Positions 5,853 to 30,611 of a stretch of DNA of 39,110 nucleotides are shown here, piece after piece. The translations under genes and the position numbers were made by a program. The notes below the pieces were generated by a model that was not told the origin of the DNA, did not search any database, and saw only the letters and a list, made by a program, of their open reading frames with translations. The stretch's first letter is position 1; every line of letters begins with the position of its first letter. This DNA is from Methylophaga sp. (GTDB lineage Bacteria > Pseudomonadota > Gammaproteobacteria > Nitrosococcales > Methylophagaceae): assembly GCA_026988435.1 (NCBI GenBank), contig JALSLH010000068.1, forward strand, positions 1 to 39,110. Reading direction: 5' to 3'.

Positions 5853-6317
5853 TCAGTCGTCATCGATCGCAAGTAATAAATCGAACATTTTATCGACATC
5901 GTCTGTTTCTCGTATTTTCTGGCAGATAGTCGGTTCGCGGAATGATGTGACTAAACTTGCTAAATGTTCAAGGTGGTTGTCACCATCATCTTCGGGCACT
6001 AATAGCGCAAAGATAATATCGACGCCTTTATTATCTGTGGCATCAAAATCAACAGGCCGATTGAGGGTGAGCATAGCGGCAATGGTATGTGTAATGCCAG
6101 GAACACGGGCGTGGGGTATAGCCACGCCCTTTCCTATTCCTGTACTGCCCAAGCGCTCTCGATCAAATAATGCATCAAATATGGCATCATCTGAAATAAG
6201 ATCTGTATTAGCGGCCAACAGATGGCTAATAGTCTCGATAACCCGTTTTTTGCTCGTAGCAGTGCTATCTTGGCATTGGATGTTATCGGAATTGACGAGT
6301 AGAGCAGCGATTAACAT
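5853..6317 (-). CDS. ptsN: Nitrogen PTS EIIA component (EIIA-Ntr)
   Basis: EIIA(Ntr) receives phosphate from HPr-type carriers and regulates potassium and nitrogen related processes. The 154-residue length is normal, and the phosphorylated histidine is H69 in 'GKGVAIPHARVPG'. The second half contains 'VDIIFALLVPEDDGDNHLEHLASL', typical of the mannitol/fructose/Ntr EIIA fold. It follows hpf by eight bases and precedes hprK by six, in the classical order rpoN-hpf-ptsN. No signal peptide; cytosolic. Confidence 0.95.
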   Translation of the reverse strand: MLIAALLVNSDNIQCQDSTATSKKRVIETISHLLAANTDLISDDAIFDALFDRERLGSTGIGKGVAIPHARVPGITHTIAAMLTLNRPVDFDATDNKGVDIIFALLVPEDDGDNHLEHLASLVTSFREPTICQKIRETDDVDKMFDLLLAIDDD

Positions 6318-6325
6318 GGTTTTCT

Positions 6326-6652
6326 TTAGCCTGCGTTGTGTTTCATATCGGCACCATCAGCTTGATGATGATTTTTAATTTTATCTTTATGTTTAATGAT
6401 CTGACGATCCAGTTTGGACACTAAATGTTCAATAGCGGTATACATATTTTCATTTTCATCAGAAGCAAATAAATCTGCACCACTTGCATGCACTGTCGCT
6501 TCAGCCTTTTGGCGTTGTTTTTCAACCGACAAAATGACATGAACGTTCGTCATATGGTCAAAATGGCGCGTTAGTTTTTCAAACTTGCTATTTACATGGT
6601 CACGAAGACTGTCAGTAATTTCAATATGTTGTCCACTTAAGTTTAATTGCAT
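6326..6652 (-). CDS. hpf: Ribosome hibernation promoting factor, short form
   Basis: A 108-residue sigma-54 modulation / S30AE family protein: 'MQLNLSGQHIEITDSLRDHVNSK' opening, 'VHVILSVEKQRQKAEATVHASGADLFASDE' in the middle and 'MYTAIEHLVSKLDRQIIKHKDKIK' at the end. It binds the small ribosomal subunit in stationary phase and inactivates ribosomes. The short length (no C-terminal dimerisation domain) matches gammaproteobacterial HPF. Located between rpoN (32 bases) and ptsN. Confidence 0.95.
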   Translation of the reverse strand: MQLNLSGQHIEITDSLRDHVNSKFEKLTRHFDHMTNVHVILSVEKQRQKAEATVHASGADLFASDENENMYTAIEHLVSKLDRQIIKHKDKIKNHHQADGADMKHNAG

Positions 6653-22942: not shown

Positions 22943-23112
22943 AACCACAGAGACACAGAGCACACAGAGGTGAAATATAATTTAGTATTTTTGGTAAGAC
23001 TATCAAGCTATCTGCAATATTGTCACCCGTCAACAAGCTCAGCACTAACGGCATTTTATGTGGTTTCAATGATTATTGTTATGAAACTCAGTGTTCTCTG
23101 TGTCTCTGTGGT
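22943..23112. repeat. Inverted pair of ACCACAGAG-type repeats without a gene inside
   Basis: Direct copy AACCACAGAGACACAGAG... (22943-22970) and inverted copy ending ...CTCTGTGTCTCTGTGGT (23096-23112) flank about 125 bases with no coding potential. The arms match those around the GxxExxY gene at 28763-29336, so this may be a gene-less derivative of that element. It fills most of the 303-base gap between leuC and hxlB. Confidence 0.85.
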
Positions 23113-23135
23113 GAGGTTTAAAAATTAATTTCAGG

Positions 23136-23172
23136 CAAAAAAAAACGAGTAGCCTTACGACCACTCGTTTCT
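23136..23172 (-). terminator. Terminator of the hxlA-hxlB operon
   Basis: On the minus strand AAACGAGTGG pairs with CTACTCGTTT around a TCGTAAGG loop, followed by a run of T residues. It lies 20 bases beyond the hxlB stop codon. Confidence 0.88.
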
Positions 23173-23192
23173 TTATTTTTTCAGGAAAGTGA

Positions 23193-23726
23193 TTATTCCA
23201 TATTAGCGTGACGATGTCGCATTTCTTCTTCTTCAATGCCGCGCTCATGGATTAGATGAGACACCATTGCTTCTAAGAAAATTAACGTTGATAATTCAAA
23301 CATAGTTCCCATAGGCATGCCCTTTGTAGGAGCAAAACTATTGTCATTACCGATTTGAATTGTTTGGTCAGCTAAATCACCAATCGTAGAGCTAGATTTT
23401 GAACAAATCAAAACTACTTTAGCATCTTCAGATTTGGCTTTATTCGTAAATGACACAAGTTGAGTCGTTTCACCAGAACCCGAGATAACGATTAATAAAT
23501 CGCCCTTGCGGATACTTGGTGTGCTGATTTCACCTTGAACAAATACTTCATAACCACTGTGCATCAATCTCATCCCTAGGAAGTTACCCACCAGTTTTGA
23601 GCGACCTGCACCTGTAATAAAGATGCGCTTGGCATCATCACACATTGAAACTAAAGTAGCTTCGAGTGAATCATTAGTATCATCAAGGATATTAGTAATT
23701 TTATTTAAGAGTAGATCACGATGCAT
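23193..23726 (-). CDS. hxlB: 6-phospho-3-hexuloisomerase
   Basis: A 177-residue SIS-domain isomerase that converts hexulose 6-phosphate to fructose 6-phosphate, the second step of the RuMP pathway. Family motifs: 'FITGAGRSKLVGNFLGMRLMH', 'VISGSGETTQLV' and 'PMGTMFELSTLIFLEAMV', the last being characteristic of PHI. Length is typical. It starts 11 bases after hxlA, so both should be made from one transcript, ended by the terminator at 23136-23172. Confidence 0.95.
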   Translation of the reverse strand: MHRDLLLNKITNILDDTNDSLEATLVSMCDDAKRIFITGAGRSKLVGNFLGMRLMHSGYEVFVQGEISTPSIRKGDLLIVISGSGETTQLVSFTNKAKSEDAKVVLICSKSSSTIGDLADQTIQIGNDNSFAPTKGMPMGTMFELSTLIFLEAMVSHLIHERGIEEEEMRHRHANME

Positions 23727-23737
23727 TGTAATATTCC

Positions 23738-24373
23738 TTATGCTGCGTCAACTAAAGCGCGAAGCTCTTTAGCTGAGTCTGCTGGAGAGTCTGCACCATA
23801 GATAGCAGCACCAACAACAACGATTGCTGCACCAGCTTGAACTGTGCTTTGGATTGTATCTTTGTTGATACCACCAGCAACAGAAATTTTAACATCTAAG
23901 CCAAGACCAGCAATTAATGCTAAGTCAGCAAAAGGTGTTTGACCTGCAGCTTGTGCGTCAAGACCAGTGTGAACACCGATGATTTGCGCGCCGTTACCCG
24001 CTGCTTCTTTAGCAACTGCAGCTTTATCTTCAACACCGATTAAGTCAACTTGAGCTTCAGCATTATTTGCTTTAGCAGCATCGATAACGCCTTGGATTGT
24101 AGACATGTCAGCAGCACCTAAAACAGTAGTGATTTTACCACCCGCTTCGAAGAAAGGTGTTGATTCATAACCACCAGCATCCATAGTTTTAAGGTCAACT
24201 AAGATAGTTTTAGTTGGGTGTGCAGCAGTTAATGCTTTAACAAGTTTAATACCGTTATATTTGATACAAGGTGTACCGATTTCTAAGATATCAACATATG
24301 GTGCAACTGCTTCTGCTAATGCCATTGTTGCGTCGAAGTCTAGAGAATCTAGAGCCATTTGGATTTGAGCCAT
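23738..24373 (-). CDS. hxlA: 3-hexulose-6-phosphate synthase, copy 1
   Basis: HPS joins formaldehyde and ribulose 5-phosphate. The 211-residue TIM-barrel of the OMP decarboxylase superfamily has the catalytic set D60-x-K62-x-x-D65 ('VDLKTMDAG') and the phosphate-binding 'VAGGINKDTIQSTVQAGAAIVVVGAAIY'. AGGAG lies nine bases before the ATG. It is followed by hxlB. The promoter TTGACA-18-TATAGT upstream is close to consensus. It is very similar to the second copy at 26077-26718, particularly in the C-terminal half. Confidence 0.97.
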   Translation of the reverse strand: MAQIQMALDSLDFDATMALAEAVAPYVDILEIGTPCIKYNGIKLVKALTAAHPTKTILVDLKTMDAGGYESTPFFEAGGKITTVLGAADMSTIQGVIDAAKANNAEAQVDLIGVEDKAAVAKEAAGNGAQIIGVHTGLDAQAAGQTPFADLALIAGLGLDVKISVAGGINKDTIQSTVQAGAAIVVVGAAIYGADSPADSAKELRALVDAA

Positions 24374-24546: not shown

Positions 24547-25530
24547 TTAAGCTTCAATCTCAGCTAAACGATTCGCAAGTAATTCTTCAAGTACTTCTAA
24601 TGCTTTTGCAAAACCATCAATACCTTCAGCTAATTTTTCAGTAGCCATTGGGTCTGCGGCATGCATTTTCTCAAATGTTGCTTTGTCCATATTGATTTTT
24701 TCAATATCCATTGAAGCAGCATTAGCAGCATTTAATTTTTGAGGTAAATCACCTTCAGTTGATTGCAATTCATCAAGCAATGCAGGTGCAATTGTTAGCA
24801 AGTCAACACCAGCTAACTCAGTAATTTCACCTAAGTTACGGAAGCTTGCGCCCATTACTTCAGTGTTATAACCGAATTTTTTGTAGTAGTTGTAAATTTC
24901 AGTTACAGAAACAACACCTGGATCTTCTGCTGCAGGATATGAATCACGACCAGTGTCTTTTTTGTACCAGTCAAGAATACGGCCTACAAATGGAGAGATA
25001 AGTTGAATGCCATTTTCAGCACAAGCAATTGCTTGGTGCAAGCCAAATACTAAAGTAAGGTTTGTGTGAATACCTTCTTCTTCAAGTACTTTGGCAGCCA
25101 TAATGCCTTCCCAAGTTGCAGCAACTTTGATCAGAATACGATCACGAGACACACCCGCAGCTTCATATTGAGCAATCAAGTCACGACCCTTTGCGATAGT
25201 TGCATCAGTATCATAAGATAAACGCGCATCAACTTCTGTTGAAACACGTTGAGGAACGATTTCAAGAATTTTCAAACCAAATGATACGGCCAAACGATCA
25301 AATGCCAATGTAACAACTTCAGAAGCCGCCGCGCCTGCACCTGCAGTTTCTCGCGCACCTTTTAAGGTGTCGTCTACAATGCTTTGATATTCAGGCATTT
25401 GAGCCGCCGCCGTAATCAAAGATGGGTTGGTTGTTGCATCACGTGGAGTAAATTGTTGGATTGCACCGATGTTGCCTGTGTCAGCAACAACAACAGTCAT
25501 GCTTTTAAGTTGGTCAAGTAAATTTGCCAT
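24547..25530 (-). CDS. tal: Transaldolase
   Basis: A 327-residue TalA/TalB-type enzyme that transfers dihydroxyacetone units between sugar phosphates; in RuMP metabolism it regenerates ribulose 5-phosphate. The Schiff-base lysine is K135 in '[12 protein letters not shown]'; other motifs are 'DATTNPSLI', 'STEVDARLS', '[16 protein letters not shown]', '[13 protein letters not shown]' and 'VMGASFRN'. Own terminator downstream; a weak AAGG ribosome site lies 12 bases before ATG. Cytosolic. It lies between the repeat protein gene and hxlA copy 1. Confidence 0.97.
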
Positions 25531-25616: not shown

Positions 25617-25901
25617 TTAGCTGTTGGCGCGGATATATTGTTCAACGCTAGTCACTGGGTTAGCATTTGCTTGATTGCGAATATATGCTTCGACAGATGT
25701 AACGGGTTTCGAGTTTGCTTGAATATATGCTTCAACGCTTGTTGCATTAGATGATGTGTTGGCAGACTGGTTACGGATGTAACGCTCAACACTGGTTAAA
25801 CCATCATTATTTGATGAAGTATTACTAGATTGATCTGAATCAGATGAAAACAAACCGCCAAAAAAACTGCAGATTGAAGCAAAAAAACCTTGGTTGCTCA
25901 T
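25617..25901 (-). CDS. Small protein with four TSVExYI repeats, in the RuMP cluster
   Basis: I do not recognise a named family. The 94-residue protein has a hydrophobic, Phe-rich start (residues 5-19, 'GFFASICSFFGGLF'), a Ser/Asn/Asp-rich linker (20-35), then four copies of one motif: TSVERYIRNQ (36-45), TSVEAYIQAN (54-63), TSVEAYIRNQ (68-77) and TSVEQYIRAN (84-93), separated by 4-8 residues rich in Ser, Asn, Ala and Pro. Each motif could form a short helix. GAGG lies seven bases before ATG, and codon use looks normal, so it is very likely a real gene. It lies between hxlA copy 2 (whose terminator precedes it) and tal. Multivalent short motifs on flexible linkers suggest a binding or scaffolding role; the partner is unknown. 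The Phe-rich start might associate with membrane. Confidence 0.85.
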   Translation of the reverse strand: MSNQGFFASICSFFGGLFSSDSDQSSNTSSNNDGLTSVERYIRNQSANTSSNATSVEAYIQANSKPVTSVEAYIRNQANANPVTSVEQYIRANS

Positions 25902-25996
25902 GGTAATACCTCTATATTTATTAAAACTTAGCTCCTCAACTATATTGGTATCTTGAGAAAACTATTAGATTATTCGATTATGTTTTTGTTGGAAAT

Positions 25997-26076: not shown

Positions 26077-26718
26077 TTATGCCGCATCAACTAATGCACG
26101 CAATTCTTTAGCTGAATCAGCTGGGGAATCTGCACCGTAGATTGCAGCACCAACAACAACAATTGTTGCGCCAGCTTGAACTGTGCTTTGGATTGTATCT
26201 TTGTTGATACCACCAGCAACTGAAATACGAACACCAAGGTTCAAATCAGCAATCAGTTTTAAGTCAGCAAAAGGTGTTTGGCCAGCTGCTTGTGCATCAA
26301 GACCTGTGTGAACACCAATGATTTGTGCGCCATTTGCAGCTGCTTCAGTTGCACATTTCGCTTTATCTTTTACGCTGATTAAATCGATTTGAGCTTCAGC
26401 ATTGTTAGCATTAGCTGCTTTGATTACGCCGCCCATTGTCGCTTTATCAGAAGCACCAAGAACAGTACAGATGTCACCACCTGCTTCATAGAAAGGTGTA
26501 GACTCATATTCACCAGCATCCATTGTTTTAAGGTCAACAAGGATTAATTTGTTAGGGAATTTAGCTTTTAATGCTGTAACAAGTTCTAGGCCGTTATATT
26601 TGATACAAGGTGTACCAATTTCTAAAATGTCAACATAAGGTGCTACTTGCTCTGCAAGTGCTACTGTTGCATCAAAATCTAGAGAATCTAGAGCCATTTG
26701 GATAAGTGCTTTTGCCAT
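26077..26718 (-). CDS. hxlA: 3-hexulose-6-phosphate synthase, copy 2
   Basis: Second HPS, 213 residues, with the same catalytic motif (D62-x-K64-x-x-D67, 'VDLKTMDAG') and a C-terminal half almost identical to copy 1; differences concentrate in the middle (for instance extra cysteines 'GDICTVLG' and 'KAKCATEAA'). It is transcribed alone from a near-consensus promoter overlapping a large palindrome and ends at a strong terminator. The leader AGGAGCATGTCAAC before ATG resembles that of copy 1 (AGGAGTATGTAAAC), so the duplication included the ribosome site. Two copies probably raise capacity or give separate control. Confidence 0.97.
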   Translation of the reverse strand: MAKALIQMALDSLDFDATVALAEQVAPYVDILEIGTPCIKYNGLELVTALKAKFPNKLILVDLKTMDAGEYESTPFYEAGGDICTVLGASDKATMGGVIKAANANNAEAQIDLISVKDKAKCATEAAANGAQIIGVHTGLDAQAAGQTPFADLKLIADLNLGVRISVAGGINKDTIQSTVQAGATIVVVGAAIYGADSPADSAKELRALVDAA

Positions 26719-27767: not shown

Positions 27768-28753
27768 AGAAGATGATAAACGGTGTTAAAAGTCTATTAG
27801 AAGAAAGCTTAAATGGCTTTGCTAAAGCACATAAAGATATTATTACTTTTAATCATCAACCTCATTTTATTAAAAGAAAACAGGCTAAACAGGCGGGCAA
27901 AGTTGCATTAGTTTCGGGTGGCGGTTCAGGGCACGAGCCTTTACACACAGGGCTGGTTGGTGAGGGCATGTTAGACGCTGCTTGTCCGGGACAAATTTTC
28001 ACATCACCCACGCCCGATCAAATGGTGGCGGCGGCAGAATCAGTAGAAAATGGCGGGGGTGTTTTATTTATCGTTAAGAATTATGCTGGCGATGTGATGA
28101 ACTTTGAGATTGCGGGTGAAATGTTAGATTGCCAGCATGAAACTATTTTAGTCAGTGATGATGTCTCGTTACCTAAAGATCATAGTACTGGTCGTCGTGG
28201 CGTTGCTGGTACTTTAATTGTAGAAAAAATTGTTGGCGCGGCGGCAGAGCAAGGCGCAAGTTTGGCAGAGTGTAAAGCATTGGGCGAACGTGTTAATAAT
28301 GCTACCGCCTCAATGGGGGTGGCATTAACAAGTTGCACAGTGCCGGCCTTGGGTAAGCCTACTTTTGATCTTGCAGAAGATGAAATGGAAATGGGGGTAG
28401 GGATCCACGGTGAACAGGGGCGAGCAACAATGAAGCAAGCCAGTGCCAGTGAAATCGTTGCACAGATTGCAGATGCAATTAATGATGATCTTAAACCCCA
28501 AACAGGGCAGAAAGTATTACTTCATATCAATGGCTTAGGTGCAACGCCTGCAATGGAACTGTATTTACTTTATGAATTAGCTGAGCAGTATTGGCAAGAA
28601 AAGGGTGTTGAAGTTGTACGCTCATTGGTCGGCAATTACACCACATCACTTGATATGGCGGGTGCATCTATTACGGTTACCTTACTGGACGATGAAATGA
28701 TTAGCTTGTGGGATGCACCGGTGCATACGGCTAATTTACGCTGGGGTAGTTGA
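27764..28753 (+). CDS. dhaK: Dihydroxyacetone kinase subunit DhaK
   Basis: The 329-residue subunit binds dihydroxyacetone covalently as a hemiaminal through H215 ('MGVGIHGEQGR'). Other motifs: 'LVSGGGSGHEPLHTGLVGEGMLDAACPGQIFTSPT' with the GSGHEP loop, and 'KNYAGDVMNFE'. It needs DhaL for phosphate transfer; in PTS-type enzymes DhaM re-phosphorylates the ADP on DhaL. It is coupled to the HAD phosphatase gene. dhaL, normally next, is 600 bases away on the other strand, past a GxxExxY gene with flanking repeats. Confidence 0.95.
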   Translation: MKKMINGVKSLLEESLNGFAKAHKDIITFNHQPHFIKRKQAKQAGKVALVSGGGSGHEPLHTGLVGEGMLDAACPGQIFTSPTPDQMVAAAESVENGGGVLFIVKNYAGDVMNFEIAGEMLDCQHETILVSDDVSLPKDHSTGRRGVAGTLIVEKIVGAAAEQGASLAECKALGERVNNATASMGVALTSCTVPALGKPTFDLAEDEMEMGVGIHGEQGRATMKQASASEIVAQIADAINDDLKPQTGQKVLLHINGLGATPAMELYLLYELAEQYWQEKGVEVVRSLVGNYTTSLDMAGASITVTLLDDEMISLWDAPVHTANLRWGS

Positions 28754-28762
28754 AAAGGAATT

Positions 28763-28790
28763 CACCACAGAGGCACGGAGGACACAGAGA
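28763..28790 (+). repeat. ACCACAGAGGCAC repeat, left copy
   Basis: CACCACAGAGGCACGGAGGA...AGAGA lies between dhaK and the GxxExxY gene. It is the same family as 22943, 23096 (inverted), 29202 and 29309 (inverted). It contains GGAGG (28777-28781) and AGAGA, the only purine-rich sites before the GxxExxY start, so the repeat may supply its ribosome site. Confidence 0.9.
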
Positions 28791-28796
28791 TACAAT

Positions 28797-29171
28797 ATGG
28801 AAGATAATATTTTAACAGGTGAAATTATCGGTGCGGCGATTGAGGTTCATCGACACCTGGGGCCAGGATTATTAGAATCTGCTTATGAGGAATGCATGAT
28901 GCATGAACTGAGGCACAGAAAGTTAAGCGTGAAGCGCCAGCTTGAACTGCCATTGATGTATAAAGGTCTTCAGCTCAATGCTAATTATCGGATAGATTTA
29001 TTAGTCAATGATCTAGTTATCATTGAATTAAAGTCTGTTCAGAGAATTGAAAATATACATAAGGCGCAATTACTAACGTATTTAAAATTAGCAAAATTAC
29101 GACACGGACTACTATTAAACTTTAACGTGCCAATAATGAAACAAGGTATTTGTAGGCTAGTAAATGGTTAG
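28797..29171 (+). CDS. GxxExxY-family protein (PD-(D/E)xK nuclease-like)
   Basis: The 124-residue protein has the family motif in 'HRHLGPGLLESAYEECMMHEL' (GLLESAY) and a likely nuclease-fold core: 'YRIDLLVNDLVIIELKSV' gives Asp followed by Glu-x-Lys. The family is widespread, is often bordered by exactly this repeat, and has no firm function. I start at ATG 28797; translation further upstream only reads through the repeat. Flanked by repeats on both sides, it looks like the cargo of a small mobile or gene-converted unit inserted between dhaK and dhaL. Confidence 0.9.
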   Translation: MEDNILTGEIIGAAIEVHRHLGPGLLESAYEECMMHELRHRKLSVKRQLELPLMYKGLQLNANYRIDLLVNDLVIIELKSVQRIENIHKAQLLTYLKLAKLRHGLLLNFNVPIMKQGICRLVNG

Positions 29172-30018: not shown

Positions 30019-30048
30019 GTCATTCCGGCAGGCTTGTAGCCGGAATCT
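30019..30048. repeat. REP-like palindrome overlapping the toxin gene end
   Basis: GTCATTCCGGC...GCCGGAATCT, a single member of the REP-like family. It covers the last codons and the stop codon of the MazF-like gene. Confidence 0.88.
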
Positions 30049-30400
30049 TGAGTTTAAATAAATCGTGCAGTGCTTTCACAATCTGCTTTTGATCGTTGGC
30101 ACAAAGTGAACCTGCTTTTCTAATAATTAATTGGTCATCTAATGTGAATAGTTTCATGCGAACTATTGATGCAGAAGGAAGGCCTGCAGAATCAAGATTG
30201 GTAATATCAGTATCGAGAGGCCAATCAGAATTTTGAGCACTGGTAATCATGGCAAGCACTGACTGCCCGACTTTCTGGTTAAAATTAGATTTGTTAGATA
30301 ATACTAGAGCAGGTCGTCGCTTGCTTGTTGTTTTATCGGTAAGAGGAAAAGGTACAACAACAACATCAAACAGTTCAAAGCTCACTATAGGCTTCCTCAT
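30020..30400 (-). CDS. MazF/PemK-like mRNA interferase toxin
   Basis: A 126-residue protein with 'FDVVVVPFPLTDKTTSKRRPALVLSN', the PemK/MazF core, and 'SASIVRMKLFTLDD', the second conserved block. Such toxins cut mRNA at short sequences. The last nine residues (KIPATSLPE) and the stop codon are read from a REP-like palindrome, so the native C terminus was replaced or extended. Start: ATG at 30400 overlaps the antitoxin by 26 bases; a GTG at 30385 with GAGGA six to eight bases upstream is also possible and may be the true start. Cotranscribed with the antitoxin. Confidence 0.85.
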   Translation of the reverse strand: MRKPIVSFELFDVVVVPFPLTDKTTSKRRPALVLSNKSNFNQKVGQSVLAMITSAQNSDWPLDTDITNLDSAGLPSASIVRMKLFTLDDQLIIRKAGSLCANDQKQIVKALHDLFKLKIPATSLPE

Positions 30401-30611
30401 CTTCAGCAGAAGCCCACTCAGTTAGTGTGCCTTGAAGGCTTTGTGCAAAAACAGTGTCAACTGATCGTGCTTTGCGAATATGTACATTGCTATCTTCTAT
30501 ATCAAAAGCAATAGTATCGCCTGCACCTAAATGAAGTAAGTTGCGAACAGGTTCGGGAACCGTAGTCTGATATTTGCTTGTTAATTTACTCACCGAAGTT
30601 GAAATCATCAT
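30375..30611 (-). CDS. MazE/AbrB-like antitoxin
   Basis: A 78-residue protein with a SpoVT/AbrB swapped-hairpin DNA-binding domain: 'VSKLTSKYQTTVPEPVRNLLHLGAGDTIAFDIED' (about 7-40), followed by an acidic tail that would bind the toxin. It overlaps the MazF-like gene. Repression of its own promoter through the GGTAAT repeats upstream is likely. Confidence 0.87.
   Translation of the reverse strand: MMISTSVSKLTSKYQTTVPEPVRNLLHLGAGDTIAFDIEDSNVHIRKARSVDTVFAQSLQGTLTEWASAEDEEAYSEL

Follow-up and report, generated by a model that had tools for sequence, protein, structure and literature searches.

A putative membrane-anchored docking protein with repeated short motifs encoded among RuMP genes of gammaproteobacterial methylotrophs

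Results

A motif-array gene in the RuMP cluster of Methylophaga

The stretch of Methylophaga DNA analysed here (39,110 nucleotides, hereafter the window) encodes on its minus strand, in this order, 3-hexulose-6-phosphate synthase (HPS), the array protein gene SMALL, transaldolase, and then a second HPS with 6-phospho-3-hexuloisomerase (PHI) (Table 1). The SMALL product opens with a Phe-rich, hydrophobic segment and continues as a Ser/Asn-rich linker that carries four TSVExYI motifs. The original prediction, drawn from the sequence, had counted four such motifs, at residues 36, 54, 68 and 84, and had set the gene between HPS and transaldolase with a ribosome site of its own; the motifs lie at exactly these residues, the strand (minus) can now be added, and both the placement and the ribosome site were found. 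Only one of 300,000 residue shuffles of SMALL contained the motif, and in a single copy, against the four observed. The four copies vary at synonymous sites (ACC AGT GTT GAG, ACA AGC GTT GAA, ACA TCT GTC GAA and ACT AGC GTT GAA), so conservation acts on the protein.

Table 1 Features of the array gene and its neighbours in the window
Feature	Position in window	Strand	Basis or description
SMALL, array protein, 94 aa	25617..25901	-	hydrophobic N-terminus, Ser/Asn-rich linker, four TSVExYI motifs
Hydrophobic N-terminus MSNQGFFASICSFFGGLFSSD, conserved, putative membrane anchor	25839..25901	-	alignment; family consensus MSEKGLFASICxFFKGLFSS
Motif 1 TSVERYIRNQ, residues 36-45	25767..25796	-	
Motif 2 TSVEAYIQAN, residues 54-63	25713..25742	-	
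Motif 3 TSVEAYIRNQ, residues 68-77	25671..25700	-	
Motif 4 TSVEQYIRAN, residues 84-93	25623..25652	-	
Shine-Dalgarno AGAGG, 7 nt 5' of ATG	25909..25913	-	
HPS, copy directly upstream of SMALL	26077..26718	-	TIGR03128, 243.5 bits versus cut-off 200
Transaldolase, directly downstream of SMALL	24547..25530	-	TIGR00874, E 1.4e-141
Second HPS	23738..24373	-	OMPdecase/HUMPS family; TIGR03128 above cut-off
PHI	23193..23726	-	TIGR03127, 193.2 bits versus cut-off 160

No family was matched by SMALL above the curated cut-offs of Pfam (best 13.6 bits versus 27) or NCBIfam (best 12.5 bits versus 165) or in PHROGs, and neither a profile search of PDB sequences nor tblastn against 72,556 plasmid records returned a match. 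Three array proteins from Methylococcales (L102, L105 and L192) all stayed below the Pfam cut-off (best 21.8 bits versus 23) and had no NCBIfam match. A full-text literature search with four motif forms as strings found no paper, and no natural RuMP scaffold was apparent from the search listings. The part of the Methylococcus capsulatus genome paper that deals with its duplicated RuMP repeat describes it by its enzymes and mentions no array gene (PMC517821), and the fractionation given in a Methylophaga proteome paper covers soluble fractions, with the membrane fraction omitted (PMC6548844).

Elsewhere in the window, two adjoining minus-strand ORFs (30020-30611) resemble, by eye, an AbrB/MazE-type antitoxin and a MazF/PemK-type toxin. 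A plus-strand ORF (28713-29171) that by eye resembles a GxxExxY family protein adjoins a TTEARRTQR-type coding repeat, and an HHRDTENTE stretch akin to that repeat occurs in the ORF at 23066-23248.

Conservation within the Methylophaga family

SMALL was matched in 48 of 57 genomes of the window's family, which includes Methylophaga lonarensis (L172) and Methylophaga sp. OBS3 (L198), and in 35 of the 36 better ones. Three of the 48 matches (G024, G025 and G055) arise only through a long kinase-type frame, and the small protein is present in 45 of the 57 genomes. An alignment of 26 rows gives the N-terminal consensus of Table 1 followed by repeated TGVExYIRNQ; the motif consensus is T-[GS]-V-E-x-Y-I, TGVE being the prevailing form and the TSVE of the window protein a minority one. 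Copy number in the family ranges from 2 to 8 and spacing is mostly 16-17 residues. At all 43 relative loci, from 37 further genomes, SMALL lies directly upstream of transaldolase, and HPS adjoins it (HPS-PHI instead in G056).

Twelve family genomes have no clear small protein, and seven of these are also without HPS. One of the seven, G003, is 100% complete and has neither gene; the other six are 75-89% complete, and the contig is possibly missing. The remaining five contain HPS pieces, which lie at contig starts in G045 and G011 and at a contig end in G055 (judged from the length of the locus) and are fragments in G024 and G025.

Arrays are nearly confined to RuMP gammaproteobacteria

The finding is larger than first stated, extending to a set of motif proteins across gammaproteobacterial methylotrophs that include methane- and methanol-users. 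A draw of 370 genomes from the class was searched with a small-protein hidden Markov model (HMM) and with the HPS family TIGR03128. The HMM was positive in six genomes: that of the window, three from its family, and two more (G279 and G424) whose matches are multi-motif proteins inside RuMP clusters. HPS scored above cut-off in seven, the same six and G180, which encodes a diverged array protein within a duplicated RuMP cluster. Arrays are present in all seven HPS-bearing genomes of the draw. The HMM missed the G180 array, and so the HMM alone may miss diverged arrays elsewhere. One locus of G279 (L145) holds three tandem HPS-PHI-transketolase units, separated by two copies of an array gene (458 aa), the third unit being followed by a transmembrane-type array gene and transaldolase.

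A context-blind scan of 84,980 species with one DNA pattern, two motifs 15-24 residues apart, found 75 stretches, a lower bound because the pattern fixes ACCGG at the first motif and allows only CTN or ATN codons where that motif ends. A Methylococcales or Methylophaga taxon stands in 62 of the 75 titles, and four further stretches (L160, L182, L196 and L222) were assigned to the window's family. In seven of the other nine (L153, L156, L166, L197, L207, L217 and L221) the array has RuMP genes next to it; L158 and L153 come from one MAG, and L202 (Bacterium UASB270) was rejected as a DNA repeat that matches by chance. The HPS of L156, a Methyloversatilis MAG, groups with that of Methylocaldum (89/75), which makes a mis-binned contig or transfer likely.

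HPS, PHI, transaldolase or transketolase occur in 59 of the 75 stretches, and in these RuMP-bearing stretches the nearest RuMP gene is on the same strand as the array ORF for 83 of 83 ORFs. Sixteen stretches are without a RuMP gene (L158, L161, L163, L165, L184, L192, L201, L202, L204, L205, L208, L212, L215, L218, L219 and L225), some of them short, L208 being only 2.7 kb. They include the chance repeat L202 and one CheA-type kinase (L161); L205 and L212 adjoin a methanol dehydrogenase gene, and others adjoin unrelated genes. In L205 a Methylomonas transmembrane array gene (759-1352) is found upstream of a gene for PQQ methanol dehydrogenase (TIGR03075, E 2e-203), at a distance of 1.1 kb, and in L212 another (5922-6506) is accompanied by a PQQ methanol dehydrogenase that begins before the stretch ends. 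Array proteins distant from RuMP genes were also seen at L151:6478-7374, L192:2734-3519 and L215:7461-8000, the last cut by the end of its stretch; those of L151 and L192 have a C-terminal Cys/His-rich segment (CHATTSRGKRCRR... and CQASTLKGTQCKN..., respectively).

As far as these searches reach, the arrays as read from sequence are nearly confined to RuMP gammaproteobacteria, and they sit in RuMP operons in three families. Motif proteins occurring mainly where RuMP genes are absent had been named at the outset as an outcome that would overturn the idea; the result favours it, the arrays found being nearly restricted to RuMP methylotrophs and usually inside RuMP clusters. A link of the array proteins to the RuMP pathway is very likely.

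Which enzyme of the pathway is concerned is less clear from gene order. Within 1.3 kb of array ORFs and on the same strand, upstream occurrences number 56 for transketolase and 10 for HPS, and downstream occurrences 51 for transaldolase and 18 for HPS, so both transketolase and transaldolase are near arrays more often than HPS. Together with the invariable transaldolase neighbour of the window gene (43 of 43 loci), these counts favour a reading in which the motif docks transaldolase, transketolase, PHI, an aldolase or a cluster of several of these, with HPS a mere neighbour. HPS-PHI, however, directly follows the array in Methylococcus, Methylocaldum and Methylolobus (L155, L193 and L200), and we regard another client as possible but doubtful, given also the HPS anchors and the models described below.

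The number of independent associations is probably small. In an HPS tree from a sample of 76 rows, Methylococcales form one group and the Methylophaga family another, and the two together form one clade (100/98), with another RuMP family (f185) outside it in two groups. The array-bearing HPS lineages being a single clade, the co-occurrence draws on a small number of independent events, and perhaps on a single one after which the cluster was transferred. Methylococcales and the Methylophaga family nevertheless build the motif into proteins of differing architecture.

The motif also occurs in other proteins

A motif exclusive to the RuMP pathway was rejected: it is also present in the linker of a CheA-type kinase, and Methylomonas and relatives have some arrays that do not lie near RuMP genes. 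In the genomes read, the CheA-type hybrid kinase of the window's family, which we take to be of the ChpA/PilL type, carries 3-7 motif copies in its linker and, where whole, is 1,800-2,000 aa long; loci are L056 (G000:C87:40217), L032-L037, L060, L073-L075, L078, L095-L097 and L161. The L033 ORF contains Hpt in three stretches, HATPase_c, CheW and Response_reg; domains were searched in this frame, and the other kinase frames were assigned by likeness to it. The kinase linker of the window's own genome reads TGVARYI, SGVTRYI and TGVDRYL. Single copies were found in the C-terminal tail of RNase E in two genomes of the window's genus (TGVEKYI; L087 and L094) and in a phage-type protein (L086, phrog_916). 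Five other single matches (L058, L061, L084, L088 and L090) were set aside as probable chance.

These carriers suggest either that other proteins can take over the docking site or that it binds something other than a RuMP enzyme. Under the second option the motif would serve docking or localisation in general and be recognised by a non-RuMP protein, for example a polar or chemosensory organiser, with RuMP-linked proteins and the kinase both using it; the kinase linker, the RNase E and phage-type copies and the arrays away from RuMP genes all speak for it. It leaves unexplained, however, why arrays are placed in RuMP operons in three families and are nearly confined to RuMP bacteria, and the kinase is the array ORF in only one of the 75 scan stretches (L161). 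We consider such a signal unlikely.

Most array proteins have membrane-type N-termini

The scan loci encode 92 distinct array proteins, whose architecture was compared. In 36 of these a transmembrane segment (Kyte-Doolittle) precedes the array, with a mean of 3.1 Lys and Arg after the segment and 0.9 before it, which by the positive-inside rule places the arrays in the cytoplasm. A Y-P-x-D-F-x-P-like segment lies ahead of the membrane helix in 35 of the 36. This recurrent segment, read more fully as Y-P-x-x-D-F-x-P-x-V-x-Y-x-D (L102, L103, L150 and L153-L226, comprising the 35 transmembrane-type proteins and others), is a second repeated motif, presumed to lie on the periplasmic side. A hydrophobic or amphipathic N-terminus was assigned to 45 of the 92 by a loose residue count, a crude criterion; six classed as 'other' start, by eye, like signal-peptide proteins, and five fit no membrane class. 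Most array proteins thus look likely to be membrane-bound. For the window protein, tethering through the N-terminus, as originally proposed, gains strong indirect support from its relatives, but the hydrophobic moment of its own N-terminus is modest (0.22, compared with 0.33 and 0.45 in two relatives), and we accordingly grade membrane binding as likely rather than higher.

Motif residues are near-invariant while linkers vary

Residue frequencies within the motif were counted leave-one-out in 32 and 84 proteins, so that the search pattern does not force the result. Position 1 is Thr or Ser in 99-100%, Val is kept in 99% and Tyr in 98-99%, position 7 is aliphatic or Met in 98-100%, and position 5 is Lys or Arg in 97% in Methylococcales. 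Copy number runs from 2 to about 17, linkers vary widely, and Methylococcales arrays reach 17 copies with spacing mostly of 15-22 residues. Variation of this kind might be expected of a fast-evolving spacer or by-product gene that has no binding role and is held by operon structure, a reading to which we give almost no credence, as the motif residues stay near-invariant across lineages and the motif copies differ synonymously.

A second alternative is that each repeat is a short amphipathic helix that acts on the membrane itself, by binding or curving it, for instance when intracytoplasmic membranes are formed, and needs no partner protein. The hydrophobic moments of two example motifs (0.64 and 0.44), the helix predicted for each motif and the K/R-rich motifs of Methylococcales fit this idea. 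Membrane-binding helices, however, usually tolerate swaps among hydrophobic residues, and the 98-99% fixation of Val and Tyr argues against direct membrane binding; moreover, many array proteins already have a separate membrane segment, and the mean hydrophobicity of both example motifs is negative. The near-fixed Val, Tyr, Thr/Ser and Lys/Arg fit specific recognition better than generic amphipathicity, and direct membrane binding appears very unlikely.

Predicted structures of arrays and adjoining enzymes

AlphaFold2 was run on two read-through chains in natural letters, in which each enzyme is present as a single chain. In a Methylococcus array-HPS-PHI chain (nine rows), HPS and PHI fold well and five motifs form short helices (155-162, 172-179, 190-196, 210-216 and 230-238), with pLDDT below 50 over residues 1-291 and a block pLDDT of 28-43 over the motif stretch. 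In a chain of one window-family array with transaldolase (17 rows), the best model folds transaldolase well and the motifs are again helical, the last ones merging into one helix; residues 1-205 are almost wholly below pLDDT 50, the motif stretch is at 32-42, and two of the five models are poorly folded (mean pLDDT 41-44). Each motif is therewith predicted to be a short helix. No confident docking of a motif was seen on HPS or PHI in the first chain or on transaldolase in the second. Structure prediction with HPS, PHI and transaldolase, one of the checks originally suggested, thus returned helical motifs but no confident placement on single-chain enzymes, which counts against HPS as the client and likewise against transaldolase or PHI in that role.

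A RuMP family without arrays anchors HPS itself

The RuMP family f185 is probably Methylophilaceae, a placement that rests in part on one HPS copy of G714 that lies among histidine-synthesis genes (named by eye). HPS is present in 59 of 60 f185 genomes. Motif arrays were not found in 80 genomes of this family, where the pattern matches 52 times and its reversed control 49 times, no genome having more than three matches to the pattern.

HPS itself is often extended in f185. Among 95 distinct genes, drawn from all 59 HPS-positive genomes with some second copies left out, 34 match a pattern for a GGLFGWLKKLFS-like amphipathic C-terminal tail and 15 a pattern in which an Ala/Pro/Glu-rich tail comes after a transmembrane helix; 46 stay unmatched, one of which, in G825 (GGLFGWLKNLFS), is plainly tailed by eye. 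At least one HPS copy with a putative C-terminal anchor is encoded in 49 of the 59 genomes (48 by pattern and G825 by eye; loci L242-L313 and L320-L337). The ten whose HPS has no tail (G810, G812, G827, G829, G837, G839, G846, G847, G853 and G854) are all genomes of 1.3-1.4 Mb with a single HPS and, as they have neither anchored HPS nor arrays, the RuMP pathway can run with neither device. In the array-bearing lineages, 95 distinct HPS ORFs comprise 84 uncut and unfused, nine cut and two HPS-PHI fusions, and none of the 84 (three of them short fragments) has a C-terminal anchor.

The two arrangements appear complementary at the sequence level. Where arrays are missing, an anchor is mostly found on HPS, and where HPS has none, membrane-type array proteins are encoded beside it, with the small-genome group as the exception. 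This complementarity is the main ground for naming HPS as the client, and it bears against another enzyme in that role, HPS being the enzyme found with its own anchor (only HPS tails were compared). That HPS of Methylococcus capsulatus is particulate found no confirmation in a literature search and is not counted as evidence here.

Discussion

Our preferred reading, towards which we lean somewhat, is that SMALL is a membrane-anchored multivalent docking protein of the RuMP pathway with HPS as its likeliest client. Its parts differ in strength: membrane association of the array proteins is likely from their sequences, and the chance that the motif docks to HPS, suggested by complementarity with the anchored enzymes, is about even. 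A membrane-directed N-terminus (in the window protein, the FFASICSFFGGLFSS segment) would hold a disordered cytoplasmic tail at the membrane, and in Methylococcales this would be done by an N-terminus of similar kind or by a signal peptide combined with a transmembrane helix. The tail would carry 2 to about 17 short helix-forming motifs, [TS]-[GS]-V-x-[KR]-Y-[LI], and each copy would dock a single folded partner. Clustered at the inner face of the membrane, these sites would gather a RuMP enzyme, most likely HPS, at the point where formaldehyde enters from periplasmic methanol dehydrogenase, and concentrating the enzyme there would limit free formaldehyde.

A broader and more speculative version, which we hold to be rather improbable, is that a RuMP assembly formed by the arrays lies against the membrane and captures incoming formaldehyde, that the transmembrane protein of Methylococcales bridges periplasmic methanol oxidation and cytoplasmic HPS, and that the anchored HPS of Methylophilaceae is a one-protein version of the same device. 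In the bridge, the periplasmic Y-P-x-x-D-F-x-P-x-V-x-Y segment would meet the methanol-oxidising machinery while the cytoplasmic array collects HPS; two genes for such proteins in Methylomonas (L205 and L212) adjoin a methanol dehydrogenase gene.

How methylotrophs contain toxic formaldehyde between its periplasmic production and its cytoplasmic fixation is not settled, and if array proteins hold HPS at the membrane this question becomes directly testable. For engineered methanol-using strains, artificial scaffolds are under current study (PMC10771841); the docking protein proposed here, if real, would offer such strains a natural scaffold.

Array proteins share with multivalent scaffolds of the EPYC1 and CsoS2 kind the spaced copies of one motif on low-complexity linkers and the association with a client pathway, and these membrane-type multivalent proteins tied to RuMP may represent a possibly undescribed scaffold that holds the pathway at the membrane. 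EPYC1, the Rubisco linker of the algal pyrenoid, is likewise disordered, with spaced short helical motifs, and tied to a carbon-fixing enzyme. The array proteins differ from it in being bacterial, membrane-directed and associated with RuMP rather than Rubisco, and no sequence relation was seen, the profile search of PDB sequences being empty. CsoS2, the alpha-carboxysome scaffold, also has repeated short motifs and is encoded beside a fixation enzyme, whereas most arrays are on membrane-type proteins. The C-terminal scaffold of RNase E in the degradosome is a membrane-attached disordered tail whose short linear motifs recruit metabolic enzymes; it serves another pathway, and in the array proteins one and the same motif recurs, in up to about 17 copies. 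The anchored HPS of f185 would likewise be put at the membrane, by its GGLFGWLKKLFS tail or transmembrane helix, but there the anchor is part of HPS itself and motif arrays are absent.
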